A stretch of 23,220 nucleotides of DNA from Candidatus Eiseniibacteriota bacterium (GTDB lineage: Bacteria; Arandabacterota; Arandabacteria; JAGLYR01). A model generated the notes under the pieces. That model saw only the letters and a program-made list of their open reading frames with translations, was not told the origin of the DNA and ran no database searches. Shown one piece after another: positions 5,989 to 21,045 of the stretch. The DNA lies in assembly GCA_023132135.1 (NCBI GenBank), contig JAGLYR010000211.1, forward strand, positions 1 to 23,220, given 5' to 3'. The position numbers and the translations under genes are program-made. Numbering within the stretch: position 1 is the stretch's first letter; each line of letters begins with the position of its first letter.

Positions 5989-6024
5989 ACCGAAGAAGGC
6001 AAGGGGCATTCCACCACCGCTGAG

Positions 6025-6101: not shown

Positions 6102-6144
6102 AGCGTGTGGATTTGCTTGGAGTTAGCTAGGCGGTGGGGGCTGG

Positions 6145-7332: not shown

Positions 7333-7337
7333 TGCAG

Positions 7338-7369
7338 GCGGAGAAACAGAGAAGCGGAGAAACAGAGGA
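7338..7369 (+). repeat. Two tandem 16-bp purine-rich repeats in front of the barrel gene
   Basis: GCGGAGAAACAGAGAA (7338-7353) is followed directly by GCGGAGAAACAGAGGA (7354-7369), with one mismatch. The inner period is about 8 (GAGAAACA, GAGAAGCG). The second copy supplies the AGAGGA ribosome site of the next gene, so each unit carries a potential Shine-Dalgarno sequence. Confidence 0.85.
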
Positions 7370-7373
7370 CAAA

Positions 7374-8603
7374 ATGCCGTTACGACATCCAGGGGCACAT
7401 CGGCATTGGCTTCGTATAGTAGTGATTTCCGTTCTGGTGCTGGGAAGCACGGCCGCCGTGAGCGGGGAATCGGTCTTCTCATCCCTCGGCCTGGGCGAAA
7501 GTCTCTCGCCCACGACAAGCCGCGGCGTTGCGATGGGAAGAGCCGGGTTTACCCTGGTGGATACTACAAGCGGTTCCTTTCTCAATCCCGCGATCAACTC
7601 CCTGCTCCGGCGGGTGACGCTCTCTGTGGTCATTGCTCCGGAGGTTCGATTCCCGGATGGAGTGGAGGGGGCGTCACGGAACTGGGAAACCAGCCTGTCG
7701 GCGCTCAAAGTCATCTTTCCGTTTCCCCGTCACATTGCCCTCAGCGTGGGACTCCTGGTCTGGAGAGATGTCAGTTCCGAGGCGTCGTGGGCCGGCCGGA
7801 ATTCCTCGGCGGACTACGTCGGTGAGTACACGCGAGAAGGTGGAGTTTTCTCGCTTCCGGTTCACGTGTCTGCCATGCTGACCGAGCACGTGCTGATAGC
7901 GGGGGGAATGGATCTGGTACAGGTTTCGTCCCGGGAGACCTGGACCAAGAATTTCCCGGCCAGCGAATATCAGGATTCCAGGGACAACCTGGAAAGCGGG
8001 TTCTCGGGTGCGCAGCCCTCCGGCGCAGTTCTCATCATGTGGCCGGGAAGGGCAACTCTCGGGTTCGTGGCCGGGGGTGGCCGGGACCTGGACGGCACGC
8101 TGACAACGCGGCCCGTGTTCGGCAAGGAATTCGAGAGCAAGGCGACACTGCGTTTTCCCACCCGCTACGGCGCTGGGTTTTCCTTCCACCCCCATCCTGG
8201 GTGGACGCTGCTTATGGAAGGGCGGCAAACACGGTGGAAGAACTTCCGGATAGCGGGGGAATCGCCGCTTCCTGACCGCACGTCCAACCGGATCTCGGTC
8301 GGTGTTGAGAGGGTCTCCACTCGCAAGGCGGGAACCTGGATGTCGCGTATACCTCTCCGGTTGGGCTACTGGCGGGAACCCCAGCCCCTTGAATGGCCTG
8401 CTGGAGAACAGGTCGTCGCCGAGATGCTTACCTTCGGAATAGGTTTCCCTCTCAGCGGAGAATCGGCCTCCATCGACTTGGCTCTGGAAATCGGACGGCT
8501 CGGAACCATGTCCACCAACGGCGCCGAGGAGCGGATTGTCCGACTGTCGGTGGGCTTTACTGCATCGGAACGCTGGCACCGCAAGCGCCAGACAAAATAC
8601 TAG
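7374..8603 (+). CDS. Predicted outer-membrane beta-barrel protein
   Basis: The 409-residue protein has a signal peptide (basic N-terminus, core IVVISVLVLG, cleavage near AAVSG). After this, SRGVAMGRAGFTLVDTTSGSFLNPA resembles the N-terminal plug region of FadL/OmpP1 or PorV-type barrels, in which a small-residue GRAG segment precedes a conserved NPA. The rest alternates short amphipathic strands rich in Gly, Arg and aromatics, ends with RIVRLSVGFTA and has a short charged tail. The ATG at 7374 has GAGG 5 nt upstream; an upstream ATG at 7317 would lie inside the preceding gene. The substrate is unknown. It probably works with the upstream putative lipoprotein in the envelope. Confidence 0.72.
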   Translation: MPLRHPGAHRHWLRIVVISVLVLGSTAAVSGESVFSSLGLGESLSPTTSRGVAMGRAGFTLVDTTSGSFLNPAINSLLRRVTLSVVIAPEVRFPDGVEGASRNWETSLSALKVIFPFPRHIALSVGLLVWRDVSSEASWAGRNSSADYVGEYTREGGVFSLPVHVSAMLTEHVLIAGGMDLVQVSSRETWTKNFPASEYQDSRDNLESGFSGAQPSGAVLIMWPGRATLGFVAGGGRDLDGTLTTRPVFGKEFESKATLRFPTRYGAGFSFHPHPGWTLLMEGRQTRWKNFRIAGESPLPDRTSNRISVGVERVSTRKAGTWMSRIPLRLGYWREPQPLEWPAGEQVVAEMLTFGIGFPLSGESASIDLALEIGRLGTMSTNGAEERIVRLSVGFTASERWHRKRQTKY

Positions 8604-8606
8604 CTT

Positions 8607-8662
8607 GGGTTATTCATGAATCCCTGCTGTGACCCTCTCGCTACGGGATTCCTGAATAACCC
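8607..8662. terminator. Strong hairpin between convergent genes
   Basis: Arms 8607-8624 and 8645-8662 are 18 nt each and pair with one mismatch around a 20-nt loop. It begins four bases after the stop of the barrel gene and faces the end of the minus-strand kinase gene. There is no T-run, so intrinsic termination is only likely; it could instead be a dispersed palindromic element. Confidence 0.6.
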
Positions 8663-8684
8663 AGGCTACAACGGCAACTATCCA

Positions 8685-8796
8685 CAGCAGTATTCCCCAA
8701 TCTTGGCCTGCATTTCTCACCAGCCTCGTCGCTTGTCACCCTGTCACCTGTCACTGGATCTATTCATTGGCCTTTGGCCGTGTGACGTGGGCGAGT
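8685..8796 (+). repeat. Dispersed intergenic repeat, copy A
   Basis: This stretch matches the reverse complement of 15581-15669. Block 8685-8703 is identical over 19 nt and block 8729-8758 is identical over 30 nt. The 38 nt at 8759-8796 match 30 of 37 aligned positions. Copy A carries 22 extra bases between the two identical blocks. The second block contains the tandem pattern TTGTCACC-CTGTCACC-TGTCACT. It fills most of the 266-bp gap between the convergent barrel and kinase genes. Confidence 0.88.
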
Positions 8797-8869
8797 GACA
8801 AGTATCGAATGTCGAGGAAATAGGGCGGAGTTGGGAAGGCGGGATGGCTTCTGGCCAGCGCTGTCGCGT

Positions 8870-10537
8870 CTACTCATCCACCGTGAGCGCTTCGCGCACT
8901 CCCAGGCTCAGCGCATGAGCCGTGAAGGGTTTGTCGATAAAATGGACGCCCTCCTCGAAGACACCGTAATGAGCAATGTCTGGCTTGGGGTAGCCGGACA
9001 TATAGAGGATTCTGAAATCGGGGTGGATCTTGCGGAGCTCTCTGGCAAACTCGGGCCCACTCATTCCCAGCATAATCACATCACAGAGGGCGAGGTCGAT
9101 GGGTTTGCCCCATCGTTTGACCGCCTCGATGGCCTCCGGGCCGCTTGCAGCCTCTATGACCGTGTAGCCCAGTCTCTCCAGGATCCGGGCAGCCAGACTC
9201 CGCACGGTATCCTCATCCTCCACCACAAGGATGGTCTCGGTCCCGCCCGGAGTTTCCTCAACCGGATCCGGCCGTGAGACGGGTTCCGGGGCCGCATGCA
9301 CCCGGGGCAGGTATATCTTCAGGCACGTGCCATGGCCCGGTTCGGAGGAGAGCGAGATGTTGCCCCCGCATTGCTTGACCATCGCGTACACGATGGAGAG
9401 CCCCAACCCCTTTCTTTTCCCCTTTTCCATGGTCGTGAAGAAGGGCTCAAAGGCCCTGGTTCGGATCTCCTCCTCCATCCCGGTTCCTGTGTCGGACACC
9501 GATAGCATCACACCGGCCCCGGGGGGCGGCCCCGCGTGATATCCGGAATCGCCTTCGCCCATCTCCACGTTGGCCGTCTCGATGGTCAGTGTGCCACCAC
9601 CCGGCATGGCATCCCGGGCATTGGCGGCAAGGTCGGTGATGATCTGCTCAACGTGGTGGGGATCGGCTCGCGTGTTCCCGAGGTCCGGGGCCAGGCGGAC
9701 AACCACCTGGATGCCTTCGCCCAGGATAGGCTTCAGCATCCGGCCGACTCCCTTCAGGACGTCGTTCAGATTGAGCACCCTGGCGTCGGAGGAACGGGGG
9801 CAACTGATTGCAAGCAGGCGGTGCGTGAGGTTAGCCGCGCTCATCCCGGCCTTGAGGATCTGTTCCACGTCCGGGCGACCTGGGTCGTCCGGCGCCATCG
9901 AATCCAGAAGCATTGTACTGTGGCCGTTGATGGCCGTGAGAAGATTGTTGAAGTCGTGGGCGACCCCCCCGGCGAGCCTTGCGATGGCCTCCATCTTCTG
10001 TGACTGGCGGACTTCCTCTTCCAGGTTTGTTCTCCCGGTGATGTCGCGAATCGTCATCAGGAACATGACCCGCCCCTTGACTTCAAAACCACAGAAGCTC
10101 ACCTCGGCCGGAAAAGATGGGCCGTCCGATTGGGACCAGCGGCATTCGAAGACCTGTGATTCGCCGGGACGGGCGCGGGCGAGCCTGGCAGAAAGCCGCT
10201 CTGCCCAACCGGGGATGCCCGGGTCCGCGGCCCGGCAGAAATTGTCCAGCGTCTTCCCGACGATCTGCTCCAGTGGCAGGCCAAGCATCCGGAGCGCCGC
10301 CTGGTTGCATTCCACCACAACGTGTCCATCCACTACGACCATGATGTCGCGAGCGGCATCGAAGAGCGCTCGGCAACAAGCCTCGAGTTCAGTGGTGGGT
10401 GCTGTTCGCAGGATATCGAATGGGTGGGAATCGGCGGGTGTGTTCCGTTGGAGGCGTTTTCGCCCGAGGGACTTGCGGGCCGCGGCCCTTTTGGGTGTCC
10501 CCTTAGGCGGGGTCTTAGAGGGTTTCCTGGCGCCCAT
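8870..10537 (-). CDS. Hybrid PAS sensor histidine kinase with receiver domain
   Basis: A basic, disordered N-terminus (about 1-45) precedes one PAS domain (about 50-170), a dimerisation/phospho-acceptor helix with an intact H-box LAGGVAHDFNNLL (His194), an ATPase domain with N-box DLAANARDAM, G1 DTGTGM, F-box FEPFFTT and G2 GLGLSIV, and a C-terminal receiver (about 435-553) with acceptor Asp486 in ALCDVIMLGMSG and Lys536 in KPF. The receiver has Leu where Pro is usual after the Asp motif. No membrane segment is seen, so it is cytosolic. The ATG at 10537 has GGGGG 7 nt upstream; the ATG at 10543 adds two residues. No separate output regulator is adjacent; the ligand is unknown. Confidence 0.92.
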   Translation of the reverse strand: MGARKPSKTPPKGTPKRAAARKSLGRKRLQRNTPADSHPFDILRTAPTTELEACCRALFDAARDIMVVVDGHVVVECNQAALRMLGLPLEQIVGKTLDNFCRAADPGIPGWAERLSARLARARPGESQVFECRWSQSDGPSFPAEVSFCGFEVKGRVMFLMTIRDITGRTNLEEEVRQSQKMEAIARLAGGVAHDFNNLLTAINGHSTMLLDSMAPDDPGRPDVEQILKAGMSAANLTHRLLAISCPRSSDARVLNLNDVLKGVGRMLKPILGEGIQVVVRLAPDLGNTRADPHHVEQIITDLAANARDAMPGGGTLTIETANVEMGEGDSGYHAGPPPGAGVMLSVSDTGTGMEEEIRTRAFEPFFTTMEKGKRKGLGLSIVYAMVKQCGGNISLSSEPGHGTCLKIYLPRVHAAPEPVSRPDPVEETPGGTETILVVEDEDTVRSLAARILERLGYTVIEAASGPEAIEAVKRWGKPIDLALCDVIMLGMSGPEFARELRKIHPDFRILYMSGYPKPDIAHYGVFEEGVHFIDKPFTAHALSLGVREALTVDE

Positions 10538-10595
10538 GCGCATACCCCCATCCGGATCCAGTGGGAATCGGGCACTTCAACTCACAGAGAACAAT

Positions 10596-10625
10596 ATCAT
10601 ACTGCGCATCGGTTGGCAACAACAA
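10596..10625 (-). promoter_or_regulatory. Possible promoter of the hybrid kinase gene
   Basis: On the minus strand TATGAT (10596-10601) is one base from the -10 consensus. A poor -35 TTGTTG (10620-10625) lies 18 bp upstream. It falls in the 99-105-bp gap between the two kinase genes, so the hybrid kinase may have its own promoter besides read-through. Confidence 0.35.
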
Positions 10626-10642
10626 AACAGGGGGTCTCCAGT

Positions 10643-12937
10643 CTAGATTGTGTCTTCAGACGGATCGGGATCGCCTTCGGCCGGCAGGTACATGTGAACA
10701 CTGGTTCCCCGGCCTTCCTCGCTGTCCAGGAAAATAACGCCGGCGTAGTGCTGGATCACGGCGGAGGCCACGGCCATGCCGACGCCCCGTGCGGGATGGC
10801 CCTTTGTAGAGAAATAGGGATCAAAGACGCGGGCCAGCACCTCGGGGGACATCCCGCACCCGGTGTCGGCGATGCTGATGTGTACGTGTGGTCCCCGGGC
10901 CATTCCGGGTTGTGCAACAGGGGAGGAGGGAACCCGGGAGACGTTCGCCGTTCGCACGCGGATATCCCCGCCGTCCTTCATGGCCTCGACGGCGTTGCTC
11001 AGGACGTTGGCGAACACCGTGGTGATGCTTCCAGGATCCACCTGGATAGCGCGCACGTCCCTGGCAAGGTTCGTGGTGATCCGGGCCCCTGCGGGGAGCC
11101 GGTCGGCCAAACCCGCAATAGCCTGTTGCATGCACTCGTTGGGCCGGATGCGCTTTGGGTCGGGGAAGATTCCCCTCGCGTAGGAATAGAGCTGATCTAC
11201 AAGATTCGACAGGCAGGCACAGCCCGTCTCAATTCGATCGATTCCGGCGGCGAGCTCGTCCTGCCCGGAGGTTTGTCTTTTTAGCAGGGTTGCGCTTCCG
11301 GTTATGGTCATGAGGACGTCCCGGAAGCTCTGGGCGATTCCTCCGGCGAGGATGGCAATGGCCTCGTGCTTCTCGGCCCGGTGAATGCGCTCGAGCAGGT
11401 GTTCCCTCTCTGCCTCGGCGTGTTTTCGCCGCGTAATGTCCGTCGAGAAAACAACCAACCGATCCACCTTGCCGTCCTGGTTGAACAGCGGGTGCACGCG
11501 GTTGGCAAGCCACCGTTCGCCCCGGGCTTCTTCGTAGTCTGCGAGTTTCCCGGATCGGATTACTTCAGCCGCGATCTCCCTCCTCGCCCGGGCAACCTCC
11601 GGCGGGAAGAAATCGTAGACGCGCTCCCCGATGAGCTCCTCGGGGCCCCCGTCCAAAGCGCAGGCCATGGCCTCATTGACCGCGATCACTCGACCTTCGG
11701 TGTCGACCATGGCCGCAAGATCCTTGGTCGCATTCAGGAACGCGCGCGCAGTTTCCTCGCTCCGGCGAAGGGCCTCTGCCGCCTGCCTGCGTTCGGTGAT
11801 GCTACGGGAAACACCCAGGAGCCCTACAATGTCCTCGCCCTGGCGGATCGGAGTGGTGTTAATCTCAACGTAGAGGGACTCGCCGGATGCGCTGGGATAG
11901 GCCACCTCGTAAATCGGAACCGTCTCGCCGCGCATCACAGCCTCGAAGTTCCTCCTGGTCCGTTCATGGTGCTCCGGGAGGATGACGTCCAGGTACGTTT
12001 TCTCCAGGAACCACTCTCTCGTCTGCCCGGAGCGCTCCAGAATCACGTCGTTCACGTACGTGAAGCGTCCCTCGCGATCCAGAGTGTAGAGACCATCCAG
12101 CACATTCTCCATCAGGGTTCGGTACTTCTCCTCCGAGGCGCGCAGGGCTTCCTGGCTCTCCACGCGGTCCGTCACATCCAGGAAGGCCGCATGCACAGCG
12201 GCTTCCCCTTTGTACTGAATGCGCTTGGAGCGGATGTCGACCCAACGGATGGATCCATCTCTGTGGAGCGCGCGAAAAGTGTACGGACGCGACAAGGGTT
12301 TTCCCGCAAGGCGGTCCTTGAAGCGTTGCAGGAATATGTCCCTGTCCTCGGGATGGACCAGCCCGAGGATCTCTTCGCCAGTCAGGTTCAGTAATTCCTC
12401 AAGACTGTGACCGACGATGCCGGCCAGGGCGTGGTTAGCAAAGGCGGTTTTTGGGGGAATCCCTTGGCCAATGACAATGCCCGGTATGGATTCCTCGACC
12501 AGCGACCGGTACTTCTCTTCGGACTCCCGCAGCGCTTCCTCGACCTGTCTGCGCCTGGAGATGTCCCGCACAATCGCCACGACGAGCGGCTCGGCGGCCC
12601 CTTCAACCAGAGACAAGCTCAGTTCCACGGGAAGGATGGTGCCGTCCTTGTGGAGATTCTCCGCTTCGAAGGTCATCGCTTTCTGCTCGAGGAGGTGTTT
12701 CTCGATGGCGGGGAAGTTTTTTCGGATAGCGGGCGTTACGATGTCGGCCGCCTCGCGGCCAAGGAGCTCCTCAGGCTCGTAGCCCAGCATGTGGGCGCCG
12801 GCCGGGTTGATGTCGAGGATCGTGCCCTTGAGTGTCTGGAGGTACACGCCGTCCGCGGCGTGCTCGAACAGGGTATGGTAGTGCTCGAGGGAATCCGGTT
12901 TCCGTGTCGGGCGCTTCCCGGGTTTCCTGGTCGCCAC
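10643..12937 (-). CDS. Four-PAS sensor kinase-like protein lacking the phospho-acceptor histidine
   Basis: The 764-residue cytosolic protein has four PAS domains (about 18-130, 142-260, 270-385 and 395-505). The dimerisation helix reads LAGGIAQSFRDVL where the family has LAGGIAHDFNNLL. Gln536 (codon CAG at 11330-11332) replaces the histidine, and the following D, N and N residues are changed too. The ATPase domain keeps N-box FANVLSNAVEAM, G1 DTGCGM and F-box FDPYFST, while G2 reads GVGMAV instead of GLGLSI. It probably cannot autophosphorylate and may act as a sensory partner of the intact hybrid kinase encoded 105 bp downstream. The GTG start has AGAGG 7 nt upstream. Confidence 0.88.
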   Translation of the reverse strand: MATRKPGKRPTRKPDSLEHYHTLFEHAADGVYLQTLKGTILDINPAGAHMLGYEPEELLGREAADIVTPAIRKNFPAIEKHLLEQKAMTFEAENLHKDGTILPVELSLSLVEGAAEPLVVAIVRDISRRRQVEEALRESEEKYRSLVEESIPGIVIGQGIPPKTAFANHALAGIVGHSLEELLNLTGEEILGLVHPEDRDIFLQRFKDRLAGKPLSRPYTFRALHRDGSIRWVDIRSKRIQYKGEAAVHAAFLDVTDRVESQEALRASEEKYRTLMENVLDGLYTLDREGRFTYVNDVILERSGQTREWFLEKTYLDVILPEHHERTRRNFEAVMRGETVPIYEVAYPSASGESLYVEINTTPIRQGEDIVGLLGVSRSITERRQAAEALRRSEETARAFLNATKDLAAMVDTEGRVIAVNEAMACALDGGPEELIGERVYDFFPPEVARARREIAAEVIRSGKLADYEEARGERWLANRVHPLFNQDGKVDRLVVFSTDITRRKHAEAEREHLLERIHRAEKHEAIAILAGGIAQSFRDVLMTITGSATLLKRQTSGQDELAAGIDRIETGCACLSNLVDQLYSYARGIFPDPKRIRPNECMQQAIAGLADRLPAGARITTNLARDVRAIQVDPGSITTVFANVLSNAVEAMKDGGDIRVRTANVSRVPSSPVAQPGMARGPHVHISIADTGCGMSPEVLARVFDPYFSTKGHPARGVGMAVASAVIQHYAGVIFLDSEEGRGTSVHMYLPAEGDPDPSEDTI

Positions 12938-13009
12938 GCTGGAGCCTCTGAGTGCAGGTCAGGGAATCGGGATCTCCTGCCTTTCATTTCGACAGGTCTG
13001 GGGCGGGAG

Positions 13010-13588
13010 TCAACCCCGTATTTTCCTTCGAACGGCCACGACAATCCCGGCCGCGGCGGCCAGCTTGGCGACATCCCCCACGACAAACGGAAGTACACCC
13101 ATCGATACCAGCTCGTGAGTACTGGCGGGAACGAAGACGGAGAGTCTCATGATTCCCAGCAGGTAGATAGCGACAACGCCCACTGCCATCGCACCGCTGG
13201 TCCACACAAAGGACAGCCCTCTGCTCCCGCTCGTCAACCGGCCGACAATCAGAGCCGCAATGGCAAGGCCCAGGAGGTATCCGCCGGTTGGGCCGAGGAG
13301 CCCCAGGGAACCCGCTGCGAAGACAGGAATGCCGGCGGTCCCCAGGCCCAGGTAGAGAACCTGGCTCGCGACACCGCGCTGGGTCCCCAGCAGACCTCCA
13401 GCCAGGAGAGCGAAGAAGGTCTGGAGAGTGAAGGGAACGGGGGTAAAAGGCAAGGGAACCCGAATCAGGGATCCGATCGCCGTCAGGAAGGCGAAAGCCA
13501 CGATGAGAGCGGCGGAGATCAGCCAACCGTTTACGTTGGTGGCGGAGACGGCGCCGGCCGGATTGATGGTCGCCATTCTGTTTCTCAC
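13010..13588 (-). CDS. bioY: Biotin transporter BioY (ECF S-component)
   Basis: BioY is the membrane protein that binds biotin in ECF-type uptake. The 192-residue product shows the family text PFTPVPFTLQTFFALLAGGLLG, SQVLYLGLGTAGIPVFA, and GPTGGYLLG, plus about six hydrophobic helices and a basic C-terminus (VRRKIRG). The GTG at 13588 has GAGGGAA about 7 nt upstream; the ATG at 13576 would sit too far from it. No ATPase or EcfT gene lies beside it, so it either works alone, as reported for some BioY proteins, or shares an energising module encoded elsewhere. No biotin operator was recognised upstream. Confidence 0.93.
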   Translation of the reverse strand: MRNRMATINPAGAVSATNVNGWLISAALIVAFAFLTAIGSLIRVPLPFTPVPFTLQTFFALLAGGLLGTQRGVASQVLYLGLGTAGIPVFAAGSLGLLGPTGGYLLGLAIAALIVGRLTSGSRGLSFVWTSGAMAVGVVAIYLLGIMRLSVFVPASTHELVSMGVLPFVVGDVAKLAAAAGIVVAVRRKIRG

Positions 13589-13640
13589 GGTACGTTCCCT
13601 CGTGTTAATGTTGAGTATTCATATGCTTGAGTGCTCGCGA

Positions 13641-13669
13641 AGCATAGCATAGCCGTCAACTGGATGCAA
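13641..13669 (-). promoter_or_regulatory. Possible bioY promoter
   Basis: On the minus strand TTGCAT (13664-13669), a 17-bp spacer and TATGCT (13641-13646) each match four of six consensus bases. TATGC is duplicated here (GCTATGCTATGCT), so the exact -10 is uncertain. Confidence 0.3.
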
Positions 13670-13678
13670 TCGCAAAGC

Positions 13679-13772
13679 GACAAGGGACAAGGCGAGGGCG
13701 CGAGGACGGAGCACCGCCTATGATGCTCTTTTCCTTGCACGGAGCACGTGGCACGGAGCACCGCCTATGATG
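13679..13772. repeat. Tandem heptamers and a 20-bp direct repeat downstream of the DUF72 gene
   Basis: GACAAGG occurs twice in tandem (13679-13692). GCACGGA, GCACGTG, GCACGGA and GCACCGC follow one another with period 7 (13737-13764). In addition ACGGAGCACCGCCTATGATG occurs exactly at 13706-13725 and 13753-13772, 47 bp apart. The second copy contains the stop codon of the DUF72 gene. The repeats lie in the 176-bp gap between bioY and that gene. Confidence 0.9.
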
Positions 13773-14487
13773 TCCTTCTTGTCTTGAGCAGTGTCTTGAA
13801 CCTCTCCGCATCCTCGAGCCTGGTCTCGTTGTTGAAAAGGACGTAGGCGTCGTCCACATCCTCCACGAGGCGGCAAAGATCCATGAGATCCCGATCACTG
13901 TACTGCCCCGTTTTGTTCTCCGGGCCATGGAGCCTCAGGTACCAGGGCGTGCCGGTCAGCGGGCGCTGGACAAAGGGATCGCACCCAAGGCCGAGATTCA
14001 GGCCCCGGCAAAGCGACACGGCAAGGTCCGCCGGCCAGGGACTCCGAGGTTCCCACACCATAAGGAAGTTCTCCCGATGGATGGAGCCGAAGAACTTGGT
14101 CAGGTTGTCAATGCAGGTTTTTTCGGGAAGGAAGCCGGTCGGGGACTCAAAGAGAATCACGCGAGCATCCAGGCTTCGGGCCACCTCGACGGTTCTCTCC
14201 CAGGCGGACAGGACCTCCGGGGTCAGCTGGAACCACCCATAGTTCCTCAGACTCCGGGGTGGCAGACAATCCTTGAGTTTCTCGTAGGAGGGACTCTCCG
14301 GCGGGTGCGTGATCAGCTGCCAGGCCCGGACGGCGAACTCGAAGTTCCGGCCTGCCTCCTGTTTCCACCGGCGGGCCGTCTTCGGCAGAGGAACCTGGTA
14401 GAAGGTCTGCTTTGTCTCAACGAGGTCGAATTTCTTGAAATACGCCCCCCGGGTTTTCCCGAAGCCACAACAGCCGACCTTGATCAT
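13765..14487 (-). CDS. DUF72 (YecE-like) family protein
   Basis: The protein (240 residues from the chosen ATG) begins MIKVGCCGFGKTRGAYF, the usual DUF72 opening. It continues with family features: WKQEAGRNFEFAVRAWQLITHP, a central RVILFESPTGF strand, MVWEPRSPW, GLGCDPF and WYLRLHGPENKTGQYSD, then DAYVLFNNETRLEDAERF at the end. The family is a TIM-barrel of unknown biochemical function. The ATG at 14487 has GGGGA 9 nt upstream; the open frame extends 63 residues further but that part looks non-coding. The last codons lie in a direct repeat, so the C-terminal RTS may have been reshaped by repeat growth. Confidence 0.88.
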   Translation of the reverse strand: MIKVGCCGFGKTRGAYFKKFDLVETKQTFYQVPLPKTARRWKQEAGRNFEFAVRAWQLITHPPESPSYEKLKDCLPPRSLRNYGWFQLTPEVLSAWERTVEVARSLDARVILFESPTGFLPEKTCIDNLTKFFGSIHRENFLMVWEPRSPWPADLAVSLCRGLNLGLGCDPFVQRPLTGTPWYLRLHGPENKTGQYSDRDLMDLCRLVEDVDDAYVLFNNETRLEDAERFKTLLKTRRTS

Positions 14488-14686: not shown

Positions 14687-14716
14687 CTGTTTCCTGAGAC
14701 AGACAGCAGGAAACAG
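14687..14716. promoter_or_regulatory. Hairpin just upstream of the small membrane protein gene
   Basis: CTGTTTCCTG (14687-14696) and CAGGAAACAG (14707-14716) are a perfect 10-bp inverted repeat with the loop AGACAGACAG. It ends nine bases before the ATG at 14726 and holds the only AGGA nearby. It lies in a 238-bp divergent gap in which no convincing promoter was seen. Confidence 0.55.
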
Positions 14717-14725
14717 AAAACGGGA

Positions 14726-15175
14726 ATGGGGTGTGTGTTGACCTTGTGGAAATGGGTGGAGGCGGGGGTACTGACGGCCCTGGCCCATCAGGCGGTGCGG
14801 GCGGCATCCAGCATGTTGTTCCTGGGGCCCTTCTATATGGAACGGGGCCAGCTCTGGCGAGTGCCGGGCGACCGCACGTTTGCCTGGCTTCCCCTGGTCT
14901 ATCTTTTCCTTGGTTTCTCACTTGCCTACGTGTACAGGCGTGTCCGCGTAGCGATCGGGGGTTGTGGTTGGCGCAGCGGTCTCCGGTTCGGATTCGGAGT
15001 GTGGATCATCGCGGCCGTCCCGTACCAGGGCGCCCGCTTCGTCCTGATGCCCATCCCCGGGGGCATGGCGCTCACCGAGGTCGTTGGAGACCTGGTTGCC
15101 TACCTGATTTCCGGGCTCATCCTGGCGCGGTTGCTGGAGGACAAGGTTCCCGCTCCCGTTGCTCTCCCGGAGTAG
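14726..15175 (+). CDS. Small integral membrane protein of unknown function
   Basis: The 149-residue protein has about four hydrophobic segments (roughly 11-33, 53-70, 87-103 and 120-138). Basic loops YRRVRVAIGG and WRSGLRFGFG follow the second. The pattern FGFGVWIIAAVPYQGARFVLMPIPGG...GDLVAYLISGLILARLLED resembles a widespread class of small bacterial membrane proteins, but I cannot name the family. The start is not well fixed: GGGA lies directly before the ATG and the AGGA upstream is inside a hairpin. Its last 258 bp are antisense to the tail of the omega-like gene. The membrane-protein composition argues that this strand is the real coding one there. Confidence 0.62.
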   Translation: MGCVLTLWKWVEAGVLTALAHQAVRAASSMLFLGPFYMERGQLWRVPGDRTFAWLPLVYLFLGFSLAYVYRRVRVAIGGCGWRSGLRFGFGVWIIAAVPYQGARFVLMPIPGGMALTEVVGDLVAYLISGLILARLLEDKVPAPVALPE

Positions 15176-15418
15176 CATCTCTTGTCCCTGGGAAACAACC
15201 TGGAGGCGGGTTTTATCGTCCGCGCTCGGGTCCTCCGGAACATAATGAAGCAAGCCGGCATGCAGTCTCTCGATGGCCAGGTTCACCGGGTTCGGACAAC
15301 CGCTCCCGCCGAGGCTGCGGAATGCTTTGTTCAGACGACGGGCCTCTTCCACGGCAGCGCGCACGGCCACGTACGGGTTGTCCTCAATAGATGCTCTTCT
15401 TGGTGTTCCACGGACCAT
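14918..15418 (-). CDS. RNA polymerase omega subunit-like protein with antisense-derived tail
   Basis: The first 70 or so residues (MVRGTPRRASIEDNPYVAV..., AVEEARRLNKAF and NPVNLAIERLHAGLLHYV) resemble omega, which has N-x-Y-x-x-V, A-x-x-A-R-x-L-N and a PV-x-x-A-x-E-L segment in the same order. Omega helps assemble RNA polymerase. The ATG has AAGGAG 8 nt upstream, strong support for translation. After about residue 82 the frame runs antisense to the membrane protein gene and becomes Gln/Asp/Gly-rich text (QPRQDEPGNQVGNQ), unlike any omega; there is no earlier stop. The natural protein may have lost its stop and gained a long tail. It is not beside gmk as in many bacteria. Confidence 0.5.
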   Translation of the reverse strand: MVRGTPRRASIEDNPYVAVRAAVEEARRLNKAFRSLGGSGCPNPVNLAIERLHAGLLHYVPEDPSADDKTRLQVVSQGQEMLLRESNGSGNLVLQQPRQDEPGNQVGNQVSNDLGERHAPGDGHQDEAGALVRDGRDDPHSESEPETAAPTTTPDRYADTPVHVGK

Positions 15419-15580
15419 AGCTGTTTCTCCTTTGGCCTGTGACCTGGCGATCCTGCTGTGGTTTCGTTCCGAACTCCGAGCTCGGTACTCTTTGTCGGCA
15501 GGCGGGGGTGCGGGCTCAAGAGGTTTCGTGATGCCCCTTGGCAGGAATGACGTCGAGCTGTGAAATATTGAGAATCCTGT

Positions 15581-15669
15581 ACTCGCTCACGGCACACAGG
15601 CAAGGCCGATGCATAGGTCCAGTGACAGGTGACAGGGTGACAAGCGACTGAGATTGGGGAATACTGCTG
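15581..15669 (-). repeat. Dispersed intergenic repeat, copy B (inverted)
   Basis: Reverse complement of copy A at 8685-8796: blocks 15618-15647 (30 nt) and 15651-15669 (19 nt) are exact, and 15581-15617 is similar. Copy B lacks 22 bases found in copy A between the exact blocks. It contains AGTGACA, GGTGACA and GGGTGACA in tandem (15621-15642). It lies in the 329-bp gap between the omega-like gene and the membrane protein gene at 15748; the rest of that gap shows no recognised feature. Confidence 0.88.
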
Positions 15670-15747
15670 GGGGCCGCGTGTAACCGAATACAGATACAAT
15701 TCGTAGGTATGCGTGGGTAGAATCGGATAACAATGGAGGGAGGGGAA

Positions 15748-16068
15748 ATGCGGAAGGGGTCGGTGTTCTCAGGAATGATGTGGATGATTTTCCTGTCGGT
15801 GCTCCTGTTCTGGCTGCCTCTGTTTGGGCCTCTCCTCGCGGGGATTGTCGGGGGCAAGAAATCCGGAGGTGTTCTGCGAGCCCTTATGGCCTGCATCCTG
15901 CCGGCCATAATCCTGTCGGGACTGGTGTGGTTTTCCTTCCTGGTGATAGGGCTCCCGCTTCAGGGGTTTGTCGTGGCGAGCGTGCTGGCAGGATCACTCG
16001 TCGCGTATGTTGTCTTCCACAACTTCGCGCTCGTGTGCGGGGCCATCGTCGGAGGAGCGTTGGCATGA
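15748..16068 (+). CDS. Small hydrophobic membrane protein
   Basis: The 106-residue protein is mostly membrane: about residues 8-35 (VFSGMMWMIFLSVLLFWLPLFGPLLAG, broken by prolines), 44-68 and 72-100. A Gly/Lys loop GIVGGKKSGGVLRAL follows the first segment; this loop resembles small GP-x-x-AG-x-x-GG-x-K-x-GG membrane proteins, but no function is known. The ATG at 15748 follows GGAGGGG closely; the ATG at 15733 has no ribosome site. Its stop overlaps the next start as ATGA, so the secreted FG-GAP protein is probably translated by coupling. Confidence 0.68.
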   Translation: MRKGSVFSGMMWMIFLSVLLFWLPLFGPLLAGIVGGKKSGGVLRALMACILPAIILSGLVWFSFLVIGLPLQGFVVASVLAGSLVAYVVFHNFALVCGAIVGGALA

Positions 16069-17642
16069 ATCCGAGGCAAAGACGAACGATCACGGGTTTC
16101 CTGCTCCTGCTGGGAATTCCCGCCCCGCTGTTTGCCGGTACTCCGTACTACTCTGTTCAGATGCTGGATCTGGAGTGCGGTACGGAGTGTGTACCCCTGT
16201 TGGGGGATTTCGACGGGGACGGGCAGACGGACCTTCTGGTCTGGAATGGAGAGGGACTCCGACTGTACGCCGAGCGGCGCGGGACATTCGTTCCGGTAGG
16301 AGAGCAACAGGATCTGCCCAAAGGAACCCGGCTGTTCGACGTGGGGGATGCGGACGGAGATGGAGTGGACGACCTGATCTATCTCACGCCCAGCGGGGTC
16401 TTCTTCGCCCATCTGGAGGACGTCCAGTTTGGGCCAACGCGTCAGTGGGTCAGCGCTACGTGTGATCTTCCGGGTCGCTACGTTGGACCGGCGCAACTGG
16501 TGTCTGACATCGACGGCAACGGGCGGGATGATGTGTGGTTCATCGAGGACGGTCACTTGCGCATACACCTCGTTCCCCTCCCCGGACAGCTCGTTGCTGT
16601 CCAGCCTCTTCCCCTCGTCAGCGCCGGGAGGCGGGTCGAACCGAAAGGACTGCCCTTCCGCGTATTCCTCGGGGACGTAGATGAGGATGACGCTGAGGAC
16701 CTGCTCTGTATGACCCCCGACGGTGTGAGTGCCTTCCGCGCTGGCGCAGGTTGCTTTGATGCATCGTCGGGCTGGTACCTTCCGTTCGAGCCCTACTTGG
16801 AAGAGAAAGACGCCCGGGAAATTGTGGACCAGCGTCTGGATGACATCAGCCACATCAAGGATGTGACGGGGGACGGACACCCGGATTTGTTCCTGTCCTC
16901 CTGGTCCCGCGGTGAGGTCCTGATGTTCCTTGGCGATGACGACTTTTTTGAGGATGAACCGGCGCAGGTTCTGGAACCGGGGGCAGTCATAACGCAGATC
17001 GGGAGTCTCTCCCGGGAGGGTTTCGATCGACCGGGACTGGTCGTCTCGCGGTTCACGCCGCCAGGGAAGGTCTCGGCTGCACTGCGGCTCCTCACGGGTG
17101 GGAAGATCACGATCAAGGTTCACTTCTTCCTCTACGAACCGGACGAGGCCTCCGAATTTCTTTACCTCGGAGAGCCCGCTGTTGTGCGGGAGATTGCCTC
17201 CTATGCAAAACGAAAGGACTTCGGAGCGACATCGCCATACCTTCTTTTCCAGAGCAGGGATGGAGACTTCGATGGGGACGGATGGAATGATCTGGTCGTC
17301 ATGGGCGATTCCACGACGGTCGCTTTTTACTGGGCGCGGGCGGCGGAGGAATTCGGGAGGAGCAACGGCCGGGGACTTCGCGCCATCTTCTCCCGTCCCG
17401 ACCCCGAGCCCATGCCCATAGCGCGGTTTTTTGAATGGTCCCACCAGTTGATTCTGGAGCGGGCGGGCGCGCGCTCTCCTGATCTGGAAGTCCCTGTTCC
17501 TTCGGCCTGCGGGTACGCGGTAGATTCCGGGCCGGTCGCGGACCTGAACGGCGACGGGTGGCCCGACCTGGTTCTCCCGTACCATCCTGCCGATGATTCG
17601 AGGCCCTTCAAGCTCGTTATCCTGCTCACACATACGGAATAG
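16065..17642 (+). CDS. Secreted FG-GAP/VCBS repeat protein
   Basis: The 525-residue protein starts with a clear signal peptide (MNPRQRRTITGFLLLLGIPAPLFAG). The mature part holds several FG-GAP-type blades with calcium-loop motifs: GDFDGDGQTDLLV, GDADGDGVDDLIY, SDIDGNGRDDVWF, GDVDEDDAEDLLC, DVTGDGHPDLFL, GDFDGDGWNDLVV and ADLNGDGWPDLVL. This is typical of a beta-propeller exported to the periplasm or surface, for binding proteins or polysaccharides. GGAGGA lies 8 nt before the ATG at 16065, and the start overlaps the stop of the small membrane protein. There is no enzymatic domain or sorting tail. It ends 11 bp from the convergent patatin gene. Confidence 0.86.
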   Translation: MNPRQRRTITGFLLLLGIPAPLFAGTPYYSVQMLDLECGTECVPLLGDFDGDGQTDLLVWNGEGLRLYAERRGTFVPVGEQQDLPKGTRLFDVGDADGDGVDDLIYLTPSGVFFAHLEDVQFGPTRQWVSATCDLPGRYVGPAQLVSDIDGNGRDDVWFIEDGHLRIHLVPLPGQLVAVQPLPLVSAGRRVEPKGLPFRVFLGDVDEDDAEDLLCMTPDGVSAFRAGAGCFDASSGWYLPFEPYLEEKDAREIVDQRLDDISHIKDVTGDGHPDLFLSSWSRGEVLMFLGDDDFFEDEPAQVLEPGAVITQIGSLSREGFDRPGLVVSRFTPPGKVSAALRLLTGGKITIKVHFFLYEPDEASEFLYLGEPAVVREIASYAKRKDFGATSPYLLFQSRDGDFDGDGWNDLVVMGDSTTVAFYWARAAEEFGRSNGRGLRAIFSRPDPEPMPIARFFEWSHQLILERAGARSPDLEVPVPSACGYAVDSGPVADLNGDGWPDLVLPYHPADDSRPFKLVILLTHTE

Positions 17643-17653
17643 AACTAGCCTGA

Positions 17654-18649
17654 CTATTCTGCAGAGGACGATTCGAGACGCGTAGGCACGGGGCCATCCG
17701 CCCAACTGCTCCTCGCCCGTATTTTCCGGCGAAGCAGCCTGAGCCAGTTTCCGGGGAAACCGACGGCCCGTTTCAGGTTCTTCATCTCGCTGATTGTGCC
17801 GGCGTACCCGGCTCTCACGAATTCGTCGACTCTGCCGAAATCAGACCATGACGAATCGGTTTTGATGGGAGTCAGAACGACGTCGGCCTCGGACAAGCGG
17901 AGGGCATTGAAGGCGCGGGAGAGCAGATCGTCGCATCTCAGGAGAATGTCGGAGGCCGCGTTGAGCTTGGGACTGCGGTCGAACACCGGGCTCACATCCA
18001 CGGCAATCACGAGGTCGGCCCCCAGAGCATAGGCGGCACTGATAGGGACGAGGCTCAGAACCGCACCGTCCACCAGCCGCTGCTCGTGCCACTGGACAGG
18101 AGAGAATATCCCCGGAATGCTGGCTGAAGCGAGCACTGACCTGCGGAGCGGGCCACGGTCGAAAATCACCCGCTCCCCGGTAATCAGATCGACGGCAACG
18201 CTGGCAAAGGGGAGAGCAAGATCCTCAATTCTGAGATCCTCATCAAAGAGCATTGAGAGAGCTTCCCGGATTGTCTCGTCCTGCATGAGATGGTCCCGGG
18301 TTGCATACTGGAAAAGTCGGTAGAAGCGAACCAGCTGCTCGACCGGCGGTCCGAGGATCTTGTTTCGGGAAATGCGCTCGAGCTTCTGCGTGAGTTGAAT
18401 CCCGGAGCTCTTGAGGATGTCGCTCTCCAGCAGGTTCAGAACCTCTCTCCGTACCGCACGGGCGTCCGGTTCCCGGGCGTAGAGCGCGCCGATGATAGCG
18501 CCCATGCTCGTGCCGCAGATGAAGTCGATGGGGATGTGATGTTCCTCGAAAGCCTGGAGTACACCAAGGTGAGCGAACCCACGGGCCCCGCCCCCGCCGA
18601 GGGCAAGGCCTATCCTGGGACGGAATGGGTGATGGTGATTGCGGAACAC
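17654..18649 (-). CDS. Patatin-like phospholipase (RssA/YchK-type)
   Basis: A lipid acyl hydrolase with a Ser-Asp dyad. From the chosen GTG start (331 residues): oxyanion motif LALGGGGARG (15-24), nucleophile elbow GTSMG with Ser48, and VDGA with Asp194. IPGIFSPV and YALGADLVIAVDVS are also typical. No signal peptide or membrane helix is evident; it is probably cytosolic or membrane-associated. The GTG at 18649 has GGAAGGA 7 nt upstream. The frame stays open to 18847, and an ATG at 18775 would add 42 residues, but that part is low in recognisable sequence and lies across the divergent promoter region. The physiological substrate is unknown. Confidence 0.88.
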   Translation of the reverse strand: MFRNHHHPFRPRIGLALGGGGARGFAHLGVLQAFEEHHIPIDFICGTSMGAIIGALYAREPDARAVRREVLNLLESDILKSSGIQLTQKLERISRNKILGPPVEQLVRFYRLFQYATRDHLMQDETIREALSMLFDEDLRIEDLALPFASVAVDLITGERVIFDRGPLRRSVLASASIPGIFSPVQWHEQRLVDGAVLSLVPISAAYALGADLVIAVDVSPVFDRSPKLNAASDILLRCDDLLSRAFNALRLSEADVVLTPIKTDSSWSDFGRVDEFVRAGYAGTISEMKNLKRAVGFPGNWLRLLRRKIRARSSWADGPVPTRLESSSAE

Positions 18650-18774
18650 TCGAATGTCCTTCCGCTGCTCCAGTGACGATTCCTGACGGCGCGAACCGTG
18701 CGCGCGTCCATCTATCCCTATATCGGCATGGCGGGCCGTGTCAAGTACCAGTTGACGCGGACGCGGCTGCTCCA

Positions 18775-18804
18775 TTGACAAGCTGCACGGCTTCCGTCTA
18801 GACT
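18775..18804 (+). promoter_or_regulatory. Candidate promoter of the YihY/BrkB gene
   Basis: TTGACA (18775-18780), an 18-bp spacer and TAGACT (18799-18804). The predicted start near 18811 lies about 50 nt before the chosen start codon. The -35 is consensus and the -10 matches four of six bases and the TAG--T form seen at 6025, 6096 and 20311. Confidence 0.6.
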
Positions 18805-18861
18805 GCCGGTACGGGATAGCCGGATCTCTGGAGATTGTCCCCAACACAACGAGGCGTCGTC

Positions 18862-20262
18862 TTGACCTCTTTCCTCGAACGCATCGGAGACTTCTTCCAC
18901 ACGGGAATGTGGAAGAGCGATACCCGCCAGCTCTCCCGCTGGGAAGCCGTGCTTCACGGCCAGGCCAGGCTGTGGTTCATGATCGGACAACGGTCGCAGG
19001 CCAACCAGTGTTTCACCCGCGCCTCGGCGCTTGCATTCACCTCGGCCTTTGCCATTGTCCCGGTGCTGGTGGTCGTCTTCTGGCTCTTTGGCGGGGTCCA
19101 GAGCTTCCAGGGTTACGCGCCGGTGTTTGCCGAGCGGATTGTCGAGTACATCACAATCGGCGTGCCGGGGGAGCGGGTTCCGGCGCCGGGCGCGGATACC
19201 GGTGAGTCCGTGGGCCCGGATCTTCCACTGGAGAGCATGGAAGCTAACATCCGGCAGATGCTGGAAGCCTTGGCAAGCGATGTTGTCGGCTCCCGCGCTC
19301 TCAACTCCGTGAGTGTCGCTCTCATTATCCTCATCACGGTTTCCCTGCTGTCCACCATCGAGATGGCCTTCAACGACATCTGGGGAATCAAGCGGGGGCG
19401 GAGTCTCATCTACAAGTCCAACCTGTACCTCGGGACGCTGGTGATGCTGATTATCCTGGCGGGGATCTCCTTTGGGCTCCGGGACAACCAGATTGTGGAG
19501 AAACTGCGTACGCTCCCCTACCTGGGCAGCGGGATCTCCATTCTCGGGTCGCAGCTGTTCAGGTTGCTGGCTTTCACATTCCTGTTCGTCTACATGCCCT
19601 ACACGCGGATTAGCTGGCGAGCCGGGTTGGCCGGAGGGGTTTTTGCCAGTGCGCTGGTGCAGGTTGTGGCTTGGGCCGGAATCGTTTTCAATACCCGCGT
19701 CGTGACTTGGGGCAACGTGTATGGACCCCTGGCCGGGATCCCGGTGACGCTGTTCGGTCTCTACATCATCTGGACTGTTATCCTTCTGGGAGCGGAGGTG
19801 ACCTACGCCATCCAGAACCTCCGGACCTACGCGCAGGAGCGCAGAGTGGGCGAACTGACGCAGGCCATCAAGGAGTGCCTGGCGCTCAAGATCTGCCTGG
19901 CCATGGCGGAAGCCTTTTCCCAGGGAGCGGAGCCTCTCACGGGCAGGGAAATCTCCGATCGGTTCGACATCCCACCCGGAGCAGTGAATGAGATTACGCA
20001 CCGGCTGGTGCTGGGTAGCATCCTTGTGGAGACCGAGGATGCCGAGGGGAAGCTGGTTCCGAGGCAAGATCTGCGGTCCATGGAGGTAAACCGGGTGGTC
20101 AGGATCCTGCGGAAGGGGGGCGACGCGCAGGATCTAGCGTGCGCGGGCCCTGCCAGCGCGCATTTGGACGAGGCAATCTCCGCTGCCGAGGAGACCATGG
20201 AAACCGCCTACGGAAACATGACTTTCGGGGATCTGCTTGCGGCGCAGGGGACTCAGGGCTAG
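18862..20262 (+). CDS. YihY/BrkB-family membrane protein with C-terminal winged-helix-like domain
   Basis: Members of this family (once called ribonuclease BN) are polytopic inner-membrane proteins of unsettled function. From the TTG at 18862 (466 residues): cytosolic N-terminus, then about six membrane helices near 50-78, 148-166, 190-207, 228-245, 254-278 and 294-315. The signature YGPLAGIPVTLFGLYIIWTVILLGAEVTYA is at about 287-316. A soluble region of 40-50 residues lies between helices 1 and 2. The C-terminal 150 residues include LTGREISDRFDIPPGAVNEITHRLVLGSILVE, a winged-helix-like segment known from long YihY proteins. The start has GAGG 7 nt upstream; a TTG at 18835 is the alternative. 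Confidence 0.88.
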   Translation: MTSFLERIGDFFHTGMWKSDTRQLSRWEAVLHGQARLWFMIGQRSQANQCFTRASALAFTSAFAIVPVLVVVFWLFGGVQSFQGYAPVFAERIVEYITIGVPGERVPAPGADTGESVGPDLPLESMEANIRQMLEALASDVVGSRALNSVSVALIILITVSLLSTIEMAFNDIWGIKRGRSLIYKSNLYLGTLVMLIILAGISFGLRDNQIVEKLRTLPYLGSGISILGSQLFRLLAFTFLFVYMPYTRISWRAGLAGGVFASALVQVVAWAGIVFNTRVVTWGNVYGPLAGIPVTLFGLYIIWTVILLGAEVTYAIQNLRTYAQERRVGELTQAIKECLALKICLAMAEAFSQGAEPLTGREISDRFDIPPGAVNEITHRLVLGSILVETEDAEGKLVPRQDLRSMEVNRVVRILRKGGDAQDLACAGPASAHLDEAISAAEETMETAYGNMTFGDLLAAQGTQG

Positions 20263-20287
20263 CCTGCGTTTCTCACCAGTTTTCGGC

Positions 20288-20316
20288 TTGACCACCGGGT
20301 CGTTTCGGAGTAGTCT
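20288..20316 (+). promoter_or_regulatory. Candidate promoter of tRNA-Asn
   Basis: TTGACC (20288-20293), a 17-bp spacer and TAGTCT (20311-20316), located 75 bp before the mature tRNA. It begins 25 bp after the YihY stop. Confidence 0.5.
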
Positions 20317-20335
20317 TTCGGCTGGAAATGCAAAG

Positions 20336-20362
20336 AGGAGAGAGGCGATTCTCCTCTCTCCT
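20336..20362. terminator. Hairpin in the tRNA-Asn leader or after the YihY gene
   Basis: AGGAGAGAGG (20336-20345) and CCTCTCTCCT (20353-20362) pair perfectly around a 7-nt loop. It lacks a T-run. If the upstream promoter is used, this hairpin is in the 5' leader of the tRNA transcript and may be a processing feature rather than a terminator. Confidence 0.4.
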
Positions 20363-20391
20363 TATCATCTCTCTGTAATCCGAAGAACTGC

Positions 20392-20466
20392 TCCTCGGTA
20401 GCTCAATGGTAGAGCATCCGGCTGTTAACCGGAGGGTTGTAGGTTCAAGTCCTACCCGGGGAGCCA
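20392..20466 (+). tRNA. tRNA-Asn (anticodon GUU), CCA encoded
   Basis: Cloverleaf with acceptor TCCTCGG/CCGGGGA (one G-T pair), D arm GCTC/GAGC, anticodon stem TCCGG/CCGGA with loop CTGTTAA, and T arm GTAGG/CCTAC with loop TTCAAGT. Discriminator G73 is followed by an encoded CCA (20464-20466). The other tRNA in the window does not encode CCA. Confidence 0.97.
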
Positions 20467-20506
20467 GAAAAGGGGCGCCACACTGGCGCCCCTTTTCTGG
20501 CTCCCC
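20458..20506 (+). terminator. 23-bp perfect palindrome overlapping the tRNA-Asn 3' end
   Basis: Arms 20458-20480 and 20484-20506 are exact reverse complements with a 3-nt loop (CAC). The left arm contains the last nine bases of the tRNA, including G73-CCA and most of the 3' acceptor strand. The right arm contains CCCCTTTTCT but no terminal T-run. It probably stops transcription, but its overlap with the mature tRNA is unusual. Confidence 0.8.
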
Positions 20507-20511
20507 AGAGT

Positions 20512-20610
20512 AAGAGAGAAGTAGACAATAGAAAATAGATCCCGGACAAAGGCATCATAGAAACCCTGCCCACTTCTCTCTTGCGGTCTATTTTCTATTG
20601 TCTATTTTCT
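20512..20610. repeat. Period-7 A/T-rich repeats on both sides of a short spacer
   Basis: On the left, AAGAGAGAAGT (20512-20522) is followed by AGACAATAGAAAATAGA (20523-20539). On the right, their exact reverse complements occur at 20572-20582 and 20587-20603, in swapped order relative to a simple inverted repeat. The right side reads TCTATTT, TCTATTG, TCTATTT, TCT with period 7 (20587-20610). The stop codon and last residues (EENRQ) of the four-helix-bundle gene lie inside the right array. Confidence 0.9.
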
Positions 20611-20978
20611 TCCGATGCTTTTGGTTTGCGCCCCACCGCTCGAACCAACCCCATGATCATCGCACAGATTTCATCCAGCTCGGCCCTCAGCTCCTGATAC
20701 ACATCCTTCTCGATCAGCTCCAGCCGCTGCGCAACGTCCAGAAGTGGTACACACTCAAACGCGCTCCCACGAGCAATCATGAAGAAGTGTTTCTTCTCCT
20801 TCTCATGCCACCTCCCATTCCCCTCGGCGATGTTGCACGAGATGCTGATCACCGCCCGCCTCAACTGATCCGAAATGGCGTACGTGCCTGACGGAAAATC
20901 GCCAGTCAGCCGGGCAATCTGCTCTGCAAGGCCAACCGCCCGCTTATACACATCCAGATCCTCAAACAAGAACGCCAT
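20595..20978 (-). CDS. Four-helix-bundle protein (S23/23S rRNA-intervening-sequence family)
   Basis: The protein (127 residues from the ATG at 20978) begins MAFLFEDLDVYKRAVGLAEQI, the typical S23 opening. It continues with GTYAISDQLRRAVISISCNIAEGNGR, the core motif of the family, and a helix pair near ARGSAFECVPLLDVAQRL. These small pentameric proteins are encoded inside 23S rRNA spacers in some bacteria and as stand-alone genes in many genomes; Avd of diversity-generating retroelements is related. Their general function is not established. GGAAGGA lies 6-7 nt upstream. No 23S rRNA or reverse transcriptase gene is in the window. Heptamer arrays flank the gene on both sides and one encodes its C-terminus. 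Confidence 0.9.
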   Translation of the reverse strand: MAFLFEDLDVYKRAVGLAEQIARLTGDFPSGTYAISDQLRRAVISISCNIAEGNGRWHEKEKKHFFMIARGSAFECVPLLDVAQRLELIEKDVYQELRAELDEICAMIMGLVRAVGRKPKASEENRQ

Positions 20979-20990
20979 GCTCTTTCCTTC

Positions 20991-21045
20991 CTCCCCCCTC
21001 CCCCCTCCCCCCGCCACCCGAGAACCGAAAGCCGAAAGCCGGAAT
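20991..21045. repeat. Two heptamer arrays upstream of the four-helix-bundle gene
   Basis: CTCCCCC is repeated three times without error (20991-21011). CCGAAAG is repeated twice and followed by CCGGAAT (21025-21045). Both have period 7 but unrelated units. On the minus strand the first array is a G-rich tract (three runs of G) that ends 12 bases before the start codon, just ahead of the ribosome site. Confidence 0.9.

Follow-up and report, generated by a model that had tools for sequence, protein, structure and literature searches.

Period-7 tandem arrays in a Candidatus Eiseniibacteriota contig and at bacterial S23 loci as probable arms of small mobile hairpin elements

The window analyzed here, the whole 23,220-nucleotide stretch of contig JAGLYR010000211.1 from a Candidatus Eiseniibacteriota bacterium (GCA_023132135.1), carries short tandem arrays of period 7, some of which flank a gene for an S23 protein (23S_rRNA_IVP, PF05635). 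We think it likely that, here and in many bacteria, period-7 arrays are for the most part arms of small mobile hairpin elements, which either contain an S23 gene or do without one. Arrays of this period were in excess and were associated with S23 genes, the two arms of a locus were inverted relative to each other and specific to that locus, the same site was found filled and empty, and forms with and without S23 occurred at the same site. The conserved feature is the period together with the complementarity of the arms, while the sequence of the unit varies by element.

Inverted heptamer arms and filled or empty sites at S23 genes

S23 was made the test case because S23 loci of unrelated genomes also bore heptamer arrays, with other units. 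The loci were found by single-protein searches of genome contigs. At 22 loci from named genomes of Bacteroidota, Cyanobacteria, Planctomycetota, Omnitrophota, Verrucomicrobiota, Thermodesulfovibrionales, and others, exact period-7 arrays reached a density of 5.81/kb within 100 bp, compared to about 0.15/kb beyond 1.6 kb. For 83 loci from many phyla, the density was 5.73/kb within 50 bp and 0.12/kb at 800 to 1500 bp, a 47-fold difference, and the other periods remained nearly flat except for an increase at the multiple 14 and smaller ones at 8 and 15.

We then compared the flanks, 160 nt on each side, of 71 non-redundant S23 loci by local score. Inverted flanks of the same locus had a mean score of 37.8, compared to 16.1 between loci and 19.7 for the flanks of the same locus in direct orientation. 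This own-locus inverted complementarity was reached by none of 10,000 permutations, and 68% of the 71 loci lay above the 99th percentile. The arm units were locus specific (GAAGTGG, AGAAGAC, GGGAATT, GTAGGTC, GGTAAAA, GTCAGTG, TGGTTCC, and more), and on the coding strand the 5' arm contained more G than C at 46 of 48 S23 loci. Control loci of ParE (PF05016) in S23-bearing genomes had 0 arrays within 50 bp, and inverted flanks were found at 0 of 28. The terminal inverted repeats of the S23 elements are the inverted heptamer arms, whose sequence is not conserved between elements; the S23 copy of the window lacks such a pair. In genome G015 (L039, L050, and others), we observed 19 partial PF05635 matches, many of which are closely paired, one match on each strand, in an arrangement resembling back-to-back S23 halves or degenerate copies. 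No S23 relative was found in a phage collection.

S23 genes were also present on cyanobacterial plasmids, and the first six of these loci were all bracketed by inverted heptamer arms. Related Nostocales plasmids had these operons but lacked the element. At each of four junctions, the unit present or absent was S23 plus both arms, and flank identity was mostly about 75 to 97%. At locus A, the empty form, TTCTAGGTTATGC, comprises the stop of gene 1 and the start of gene 2; with the element in place, the sequence is TTCTA-AATCAGGAGTCAGAAGTCAG...S23...CTGACTTCTGGATTCTA-GTTATGC. Plasmid pNsp_c has another S23 element, with a different unit of the GGGAAAA type, at the next junction of the locus A operon; L261, L266, and L267 have no element at this second site. 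The locus B element separates an integrase gene from the gene that follows it, and in four plasmids the corresponding spacer measures only 3 nt. Of the locus C plasmids, S23 with GGGAACA arms is found in two, no element in two, and an S23-less hairpin, its arms being of another or a related sequence, in two; L278 and L280 bear S23-less hairpins at the position of the S23 element. BLAST matches confined to the approximately 418 bp of S23 and its arms (about 540 to 960 of the query) were found on Aulosira, Trichormus, and Scytonema plasmids, the Aulosira match adjoining other genes. Judging from these plasmid alignments, the simplest reading of the filled and empty sites would be insertion of the whole unit. 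On Nostoc plasmid pNPM1 (L271, 860 to 1225), the S23 gene is interrupted by a stretch with AGGAGTC-type arrays, apparently an element inside an element.

Turnover was also seen on chromosomes. Two genomes of one genus carry, at the same intergenic spot, a different S23 gene with a different unit (GGAGGTT at L091 and GTCAGTG at L095). At another spot (L105 and L170), an S23 element in one genome corresponds to a 204-bp S23-less hairpin with GAAGTGG arms in the other. GAAGTGG is at the same time the unit of an S23 element of the former genome and of many arrays dispersed through the latter. In the site comparisons at L096 and L109, flanks were on different contigs or missing. S23 genes with inverted heptamer arms also stood between tRNA genes, namely, tRNA-Pro and tRNA-Arg (L034), tRNA-Tyr and tRNA-Gly (L098), and likewise in L101 with a different unit. 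A tRNA lay within 300 bp of 8 of 60 S23 loci and of 1 of 30 controls, a difference too small to claim a preference, and an Rfam scan of 20 S23 loci placed none of them in rRNA.

Arrays and dispersed repeats of the window and its genome

The S23 gene of the window and the arrays around it are as follows.

20595 to 20978, minus strand: S23 / 23S_rRNA_IVP four-helix-bundle gene (PF05635) of 127 amino acids, from the translation and a Pfam match (E value, 1.5e-30)
20587 to 20610, plus strand: TCTATTT array of 3.4 copies, forming the 3' arm of a hairpin (loop, 47 nt) located at the S23 3' end (Tandem Repeats Finder [TRF], inverted repeat)
20519 to 20539, minus strand: AAGTAGACAATAGAAAATAGA, the inverted partner arm of the TCTATTT hairpin (95% complementary)
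20990 to 21012, plus strand: CTCCCCC array of 3.3 copies immediately before the S23 start codon, with GGGGGAG as the coding-strand unit (TRF, 100% matches)
21025 to 21041, plus strand: CCGAAAG array of 2.4 copies, 5' of S23 (TRF)

The window S23, one of three strong PF05635 copies in its genome, thus has heptamer arrays on both sides, and the TCTATTT array covers its final codons and TAG stop. The family of this protein is matched by the solved S23 structure 2GSC/XCC0516 from Xanthomonas campestris. The inverted pair (20519 to 20539 with 20587 to 20607) has a predicted fold of -41.8 kcal/mol over 20519 to 20607. A homologous hairpin stands at the 3' end of the second S23 copy (L003), with compensatory arm changes: CTATTTT to CTAATTT on one arm is matched by AAAATAG to AAATTAG on the other. 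Arrays of CCGAAAG or of a similar unit are also found at L006, L007, and L150 of this genome. The gene is 129 bp from tRNA-Asn, and no rRNA is found there. At 20458 to 20506, a perfect 23-bp inverted repeat with a 3-nt loop includes the 3' end of tRNA-Asn in its left arm; this terminator-like hairpin would pair with the tRNA acceptor end.

The initial annotation had proposed that arrays with unrelated units share only their period and arise through a process that makes new tandem repeats in the gaps of this lineage, sometimes touching gene ends and ribosome sites. All of the arrays that it named were located in the window sequence, and stop codons and ribosome sites are indeed touched. Comparison with simulated sequence revealed an excess of period 7 in both the window and the genome. 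Under a strict cutoff for imperfect arrays, the window has 2 period-7 arrays compared to 0.03 expected from 100 order-3 Markov simulations, and period 7 alone stands out; under a looser cutoff, it has 6 compared to 0.97 expected, with a simulated maximum of 3. In 446 kb of the genome, imperfect arrays numbered 41 for period 7, 19 for period 14, and 0 to 7 for each of the others from 4 to 15, so that the shared period proved both real and specific. Period 7 exceeds the other periods as well as simulated sequence, as is characteristic of heptanucleotide simple-sequence repeats. In 286 kb, 23 intergenic exact period-7 arrays were observed and 0.55 were expected, a figure that is biased because the contigs were picked mostly via TGTCACC matches. 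The excess was weaker in 160 kb of contigs that were selected by their number, with 6 exact arrays compared to 1.6 expected over all sequence.

In the window, TRF assigned period 7 to 8734 to 8754, 13737 to 13761, 20587 to 20610, 20990 to 21012 (3.3 perfect copies), and 21025 to 21041; several arrays are only 2.4 to 3.6 copies long. The array at 7341 to 7367 is of period 8, not 7. The TGTCACC array at 15621 to 15642 exists as well, and the TRF fit of 15622 to 15642 gives period 8 with one indel. The arrays remote from S23 are the following.

8682 to 8774, plus strand: S23-less dispersed repeat with a TGTCACC array, copy 1 (inverted repeats, genome matches, 19-copy alignment)
15602 to 15672, minus strand: inverted copy 2 of the TGTCACC dispersed repeat (94% and 95% inverted matches to copy 1)
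13679 to 13777, no strand assigned: GACAAGG and GCACGGA/GCACGTG arrays; ACGGAGCACCGCCTATGATG occurs here twice in direct orientation (TRF, repeat comparison)
7338 to 7369, plus strand: GAGAAACA/GAGAAGCG array of period 8 that closely follows the frame at 6145 to 7332 (TRF, 3.4 copies, 78% matches)

The two TGTCACC copies are inverted relative to each other (8728 to 8774 with 15602 to 15648), with 94% identity over 47 nt plus 95% over 22 nt. A 14-mer pattern of this repeat has 31 matches in the genome, many at contig ends, and in other copies the array is paired with a weakly inverted AGTGTCG array about 40 nt beyond it. The direct copies of ACGGAGCACCGCCTATGATG lie at 13706 to 13730 and 13753 to 13777, and GCACGGA-type arrays, to which those at 13679 to 13764 belong, recur in other contigs (L016 and L022). 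The window thus contains one S23 copy with unmatched arrays, a small hairpin that is intact where that gene ends, and two S23-less copies of a dispersed repeat; the period-8 array at 7338 is counted with none of these.

These results leave only part of the earlier interpretation standing. Many units do differ from one another, but the TGTCACC pair is one dispersed repeat, TCTATTT forms an inverted pair, and units recur genome-wide. Nor are the arrays, for the most part, new repeats of independent origin: many are arms of hairpins, a large class of them brackets S23 genes in many phyla, and whole hairpins, with S23 or lacking it, come and go as units. A lineage-wide property is not demonstrated, since in 133 kb from seven genomes of the same class (G001 to G007, without S23 match) no period-7 excess was found.

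Two further repeats were observed. A second dispersed family, at 4433 to 4455, 8601 to 8668, 8701 to 8723, and 20257 to 20279 of the window, consists of GGCTAGCCTGCGTTTCTCACCAG and the palindrome TAGCTTGGGTTATTCATGAATCCC...GGGATTCCTGAATAACCCAGGCTA, and it also adjoins several TGTCACC copies in other contigs. In contig C249 of the same genome (L001, 2110 to 3000), three tandem 299-bp copies, which start within a tRNA-Glu gene, each bear a CGGCTTT heptamer array.

Mobile hairpins and alternative explanations

According to the layout that we propose, an element would consist of a 5' arm of degenerate heptamers (G-rich and C-poor in S23 elements), a short loop or an S23 gene of about 120 codons, and a 3' arm reverse complementary to the 5' one. 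It would insert into spacers, namely, stop/start junctions of operons, gaps between tRNA genes, and, in the case of the known 23S rRNA intervening sequences (IVSs), rRNA helices. By analogy with 23S IVSs, the arms may form a double-stranded RNA stem that is cut out by RNase III, and such removal would make the insertion tolerable. The purine-rich 5' arm could supply a Shine-Dalgarno sequence for S23. S23 and Avd, a protein of diversity-generating retroelements, are related four-helix-bundle proteins, and S23 might be a helper, binding the RNA or DNA of the element. Movement would proceed through recognition of the hairpin shape by machinery acting in trans.

Several observations weigh against mobile hairpins. 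About one-third of the surveyed S23 loci have no detectable arms, and in the genome of the window the flanks of the window S23 are not significantly complementary (score, 17), those of the other two copies scoring 18 and 20. Similarity between units is barely explained by similarity between the proteins (Spearman coefficient, 0.13, reached by 0 of 999 permutations). No clear target site duplication was seen at the plasmid junctions, none being clear at locus B or C; at locus A, TTCTA stands on both sides and is explicable as part of the arm. The plasmid elements carry no transposase, S23 being their sole open reading frame. S23 is not generally co-oriented with its neighbors (72% upstream compared to a 64% baseline [P = 0.11] and 54% downstream), which weakens a purely RNA-level account. 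Arrays numbered 3.4 per 100 kb in genomes with S23 and 1.1 in genomes without, a difference that is suggestive but not decisive. Finally, G054, a genome without PF05635 match, has many period-7 arrays, indicating that S23 is unnecessary for their persistence. The arrays of G054 (L204 and L205) include many long ones of the GGCAAGA/AATAGGC type, and ten Y1 transposase matches occur in this genome.

A more specific mobile version, which we regard as possible though doubtful, is that Y1 (HUH) transposases of the RAYT or IS200 kind act in trans to move REP/REPIN-like hairpins in single-stranded DNA form, with S23 as cargo or helper. A Y1_Tnp match was present in all 16 S23-bearing genomes tested, so that recognition of single-stranded hairpins by shape stays a candidate; such recognition would permit ends without fixed sequence. 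The ten matches in the array-rich, S23-less G054 and their absence from three S23-less genomes with few or no arrays (G019, G043, and G030) point in the same direction. However, Y1 transposases are widespread anyway, the sole match in the genome of the window is weak and partial (a 112-amino-acid frame), no Y1 gene is annotated beside the plasmid elements, and inspection of the arms revealed no conserved tetranucleotide such as GTAG.

Plain polymerase slippage is close to the view of the initial annotation: with about 7 nt in contact with the polymerase, new heptamer repeats would arise anywhere in spacers. A slippage hypothesis for heptamers dates from 2007, as cited in PMC4692102 and PMC4679880, which also describe heptamers as over-represented among the long simple repeats of many bacterial genomes. 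In line with slippage, array lengths vary among close relatives (L089 and L090, and Coxiella strains according to PMC4990558). Yet slippage yields no second, inverted array of the same unit 40 to 500 bp away, it would not single out S23 genes, and it cannot insert a gene and both arms at once, so that the filled and empty sites disfavor it as the sole cause. We therefore consider slippage an unlikely explanation of the arrays, although it may be a means of arm lengthening.

Slightly less credible still is the view that nothing moves, S23 being inherited vertically and the arms around it being RNA-processing stems or translation signals under local selection. This would fit arms that often lie within about 20 to 60 nt of the S23 domain, a 5' arm that is G-rich like a Shine-Dalgarno sequence at 46 of 48 loci, and the compensatory changes in the hairpins at two S23 copies of the window's genome, but it is at odds with the filled and empty sites, the same-site swaps with different units, and the S23-less versions. 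Retro-mobility, that is, copying of the RNA by a reverse transcriptase with S23 acting like Avd, accords with the kinship of the two proteins and with elements in transcribed spacers (tRNA operons and gene operons), but it is very improbable and disfavored as a general mechanism, since, by the PF00078 profile only, RVT_1 was not detected in S23-bearing G066, G067, G071, G072, G047, G062, G063, and G064 (several of them incomplete), some of which show turnover.

Mobile hairpins would join in one testable question the frequency of heptamers among long bacterial simple repeats, the role of the S23 protein, and the origin of 23S rRNA IVSs. If true, ends that match each other but have no fixed sequence would represent an unusual mode of end recognition, and the filled and empty plasmid sites of cultured Nostocales offer a laboratory system for observing movement.

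Comparison with known systems

REPIN/RAYT systems consist of short inverted-repeat hairpins that are dispersed in spacers and have no gene of their own, with a conserved palindrome and a linked transposase. The elements described here resemble them as spacer hairpins and differ in that their units are not tied to any particular sequence and a linked transposase is lacking: no Y1 is annotated at the plasmid elements, and the arm sequence is not conserved between loci. The STRR repeats of filamentous cyanobacteria are tandem heptanucleotides in spacers, a given unit of which recurs in one genome; to our knowledge, they have not been described as arms of an inserted element.

The heptameric G-rich repeats of Xanthomonas and Nostoc (GGGAATC and GGGGAYT) have period 7, are mostly intergenic, and in Xanthomonas form many inverted pairs (PMC4692102). 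They differ from the arms described here in having one unit per genome, and they were treated as G-quadruplex repeats with no link to S23 or mobility, the main text mentioning neither S23 nor XCC0516 (PMC4692102). In the P6b stem of the Nostoc trnL intron, degenerate heptamers form two arms that pair into an RNA hairpin, but these repeats are fixed in the intron, lack S23, and belong to two unit classes only (PMC3488679). The excess of heptamers, the inverted pairs of one unit in Xanthomonas, and the heptamer hairpins of Nostoc trnL are thus already known. In a search of full-text literature, which mostly does not extend to subscription journals, nothing linked S23 to heptamer arms generally, and PF05635 was mentioned in one paper, on diversity-generating retroelements.

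The 23S rRNA IVS of Coxiella burnetii contains, according to PMC4990558, an S23p open reading frame, tandem GACAGAT heptamers, and a 28-bp terminal stem that is cut by RNase III in vitro. Like the elements described here, it has a single S23 open reading frame, complementary termini in a long stem, and heptamers 5' of the open reading frame; it is about 430 nt long and is suspected to be an old mobile element (PMC4990558). It differs in being described inside 23S rRNA, with heptamers noted for one element, and the account, in the passages of PMC4990558 consulted, is without family-wide heptamer arms, filled and empty operon or tRNA sites, or S23-less forms. Compared to 23S rRNA IVSs, the window copy has the PF05635 open reading frame, is not in a 23S rRNA gene, and lacks the terminal stem, which is present at 68% of the 71 loci. 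For a mobile class across phyla, with ends set by period and mutual complementarity, S23 as an optional component, and 23S IVSs as its rRNA-inserted members, we see the case as evenly balanced; the Coxiella IVS itself looks like one specialized case of mobile hairpin elements.

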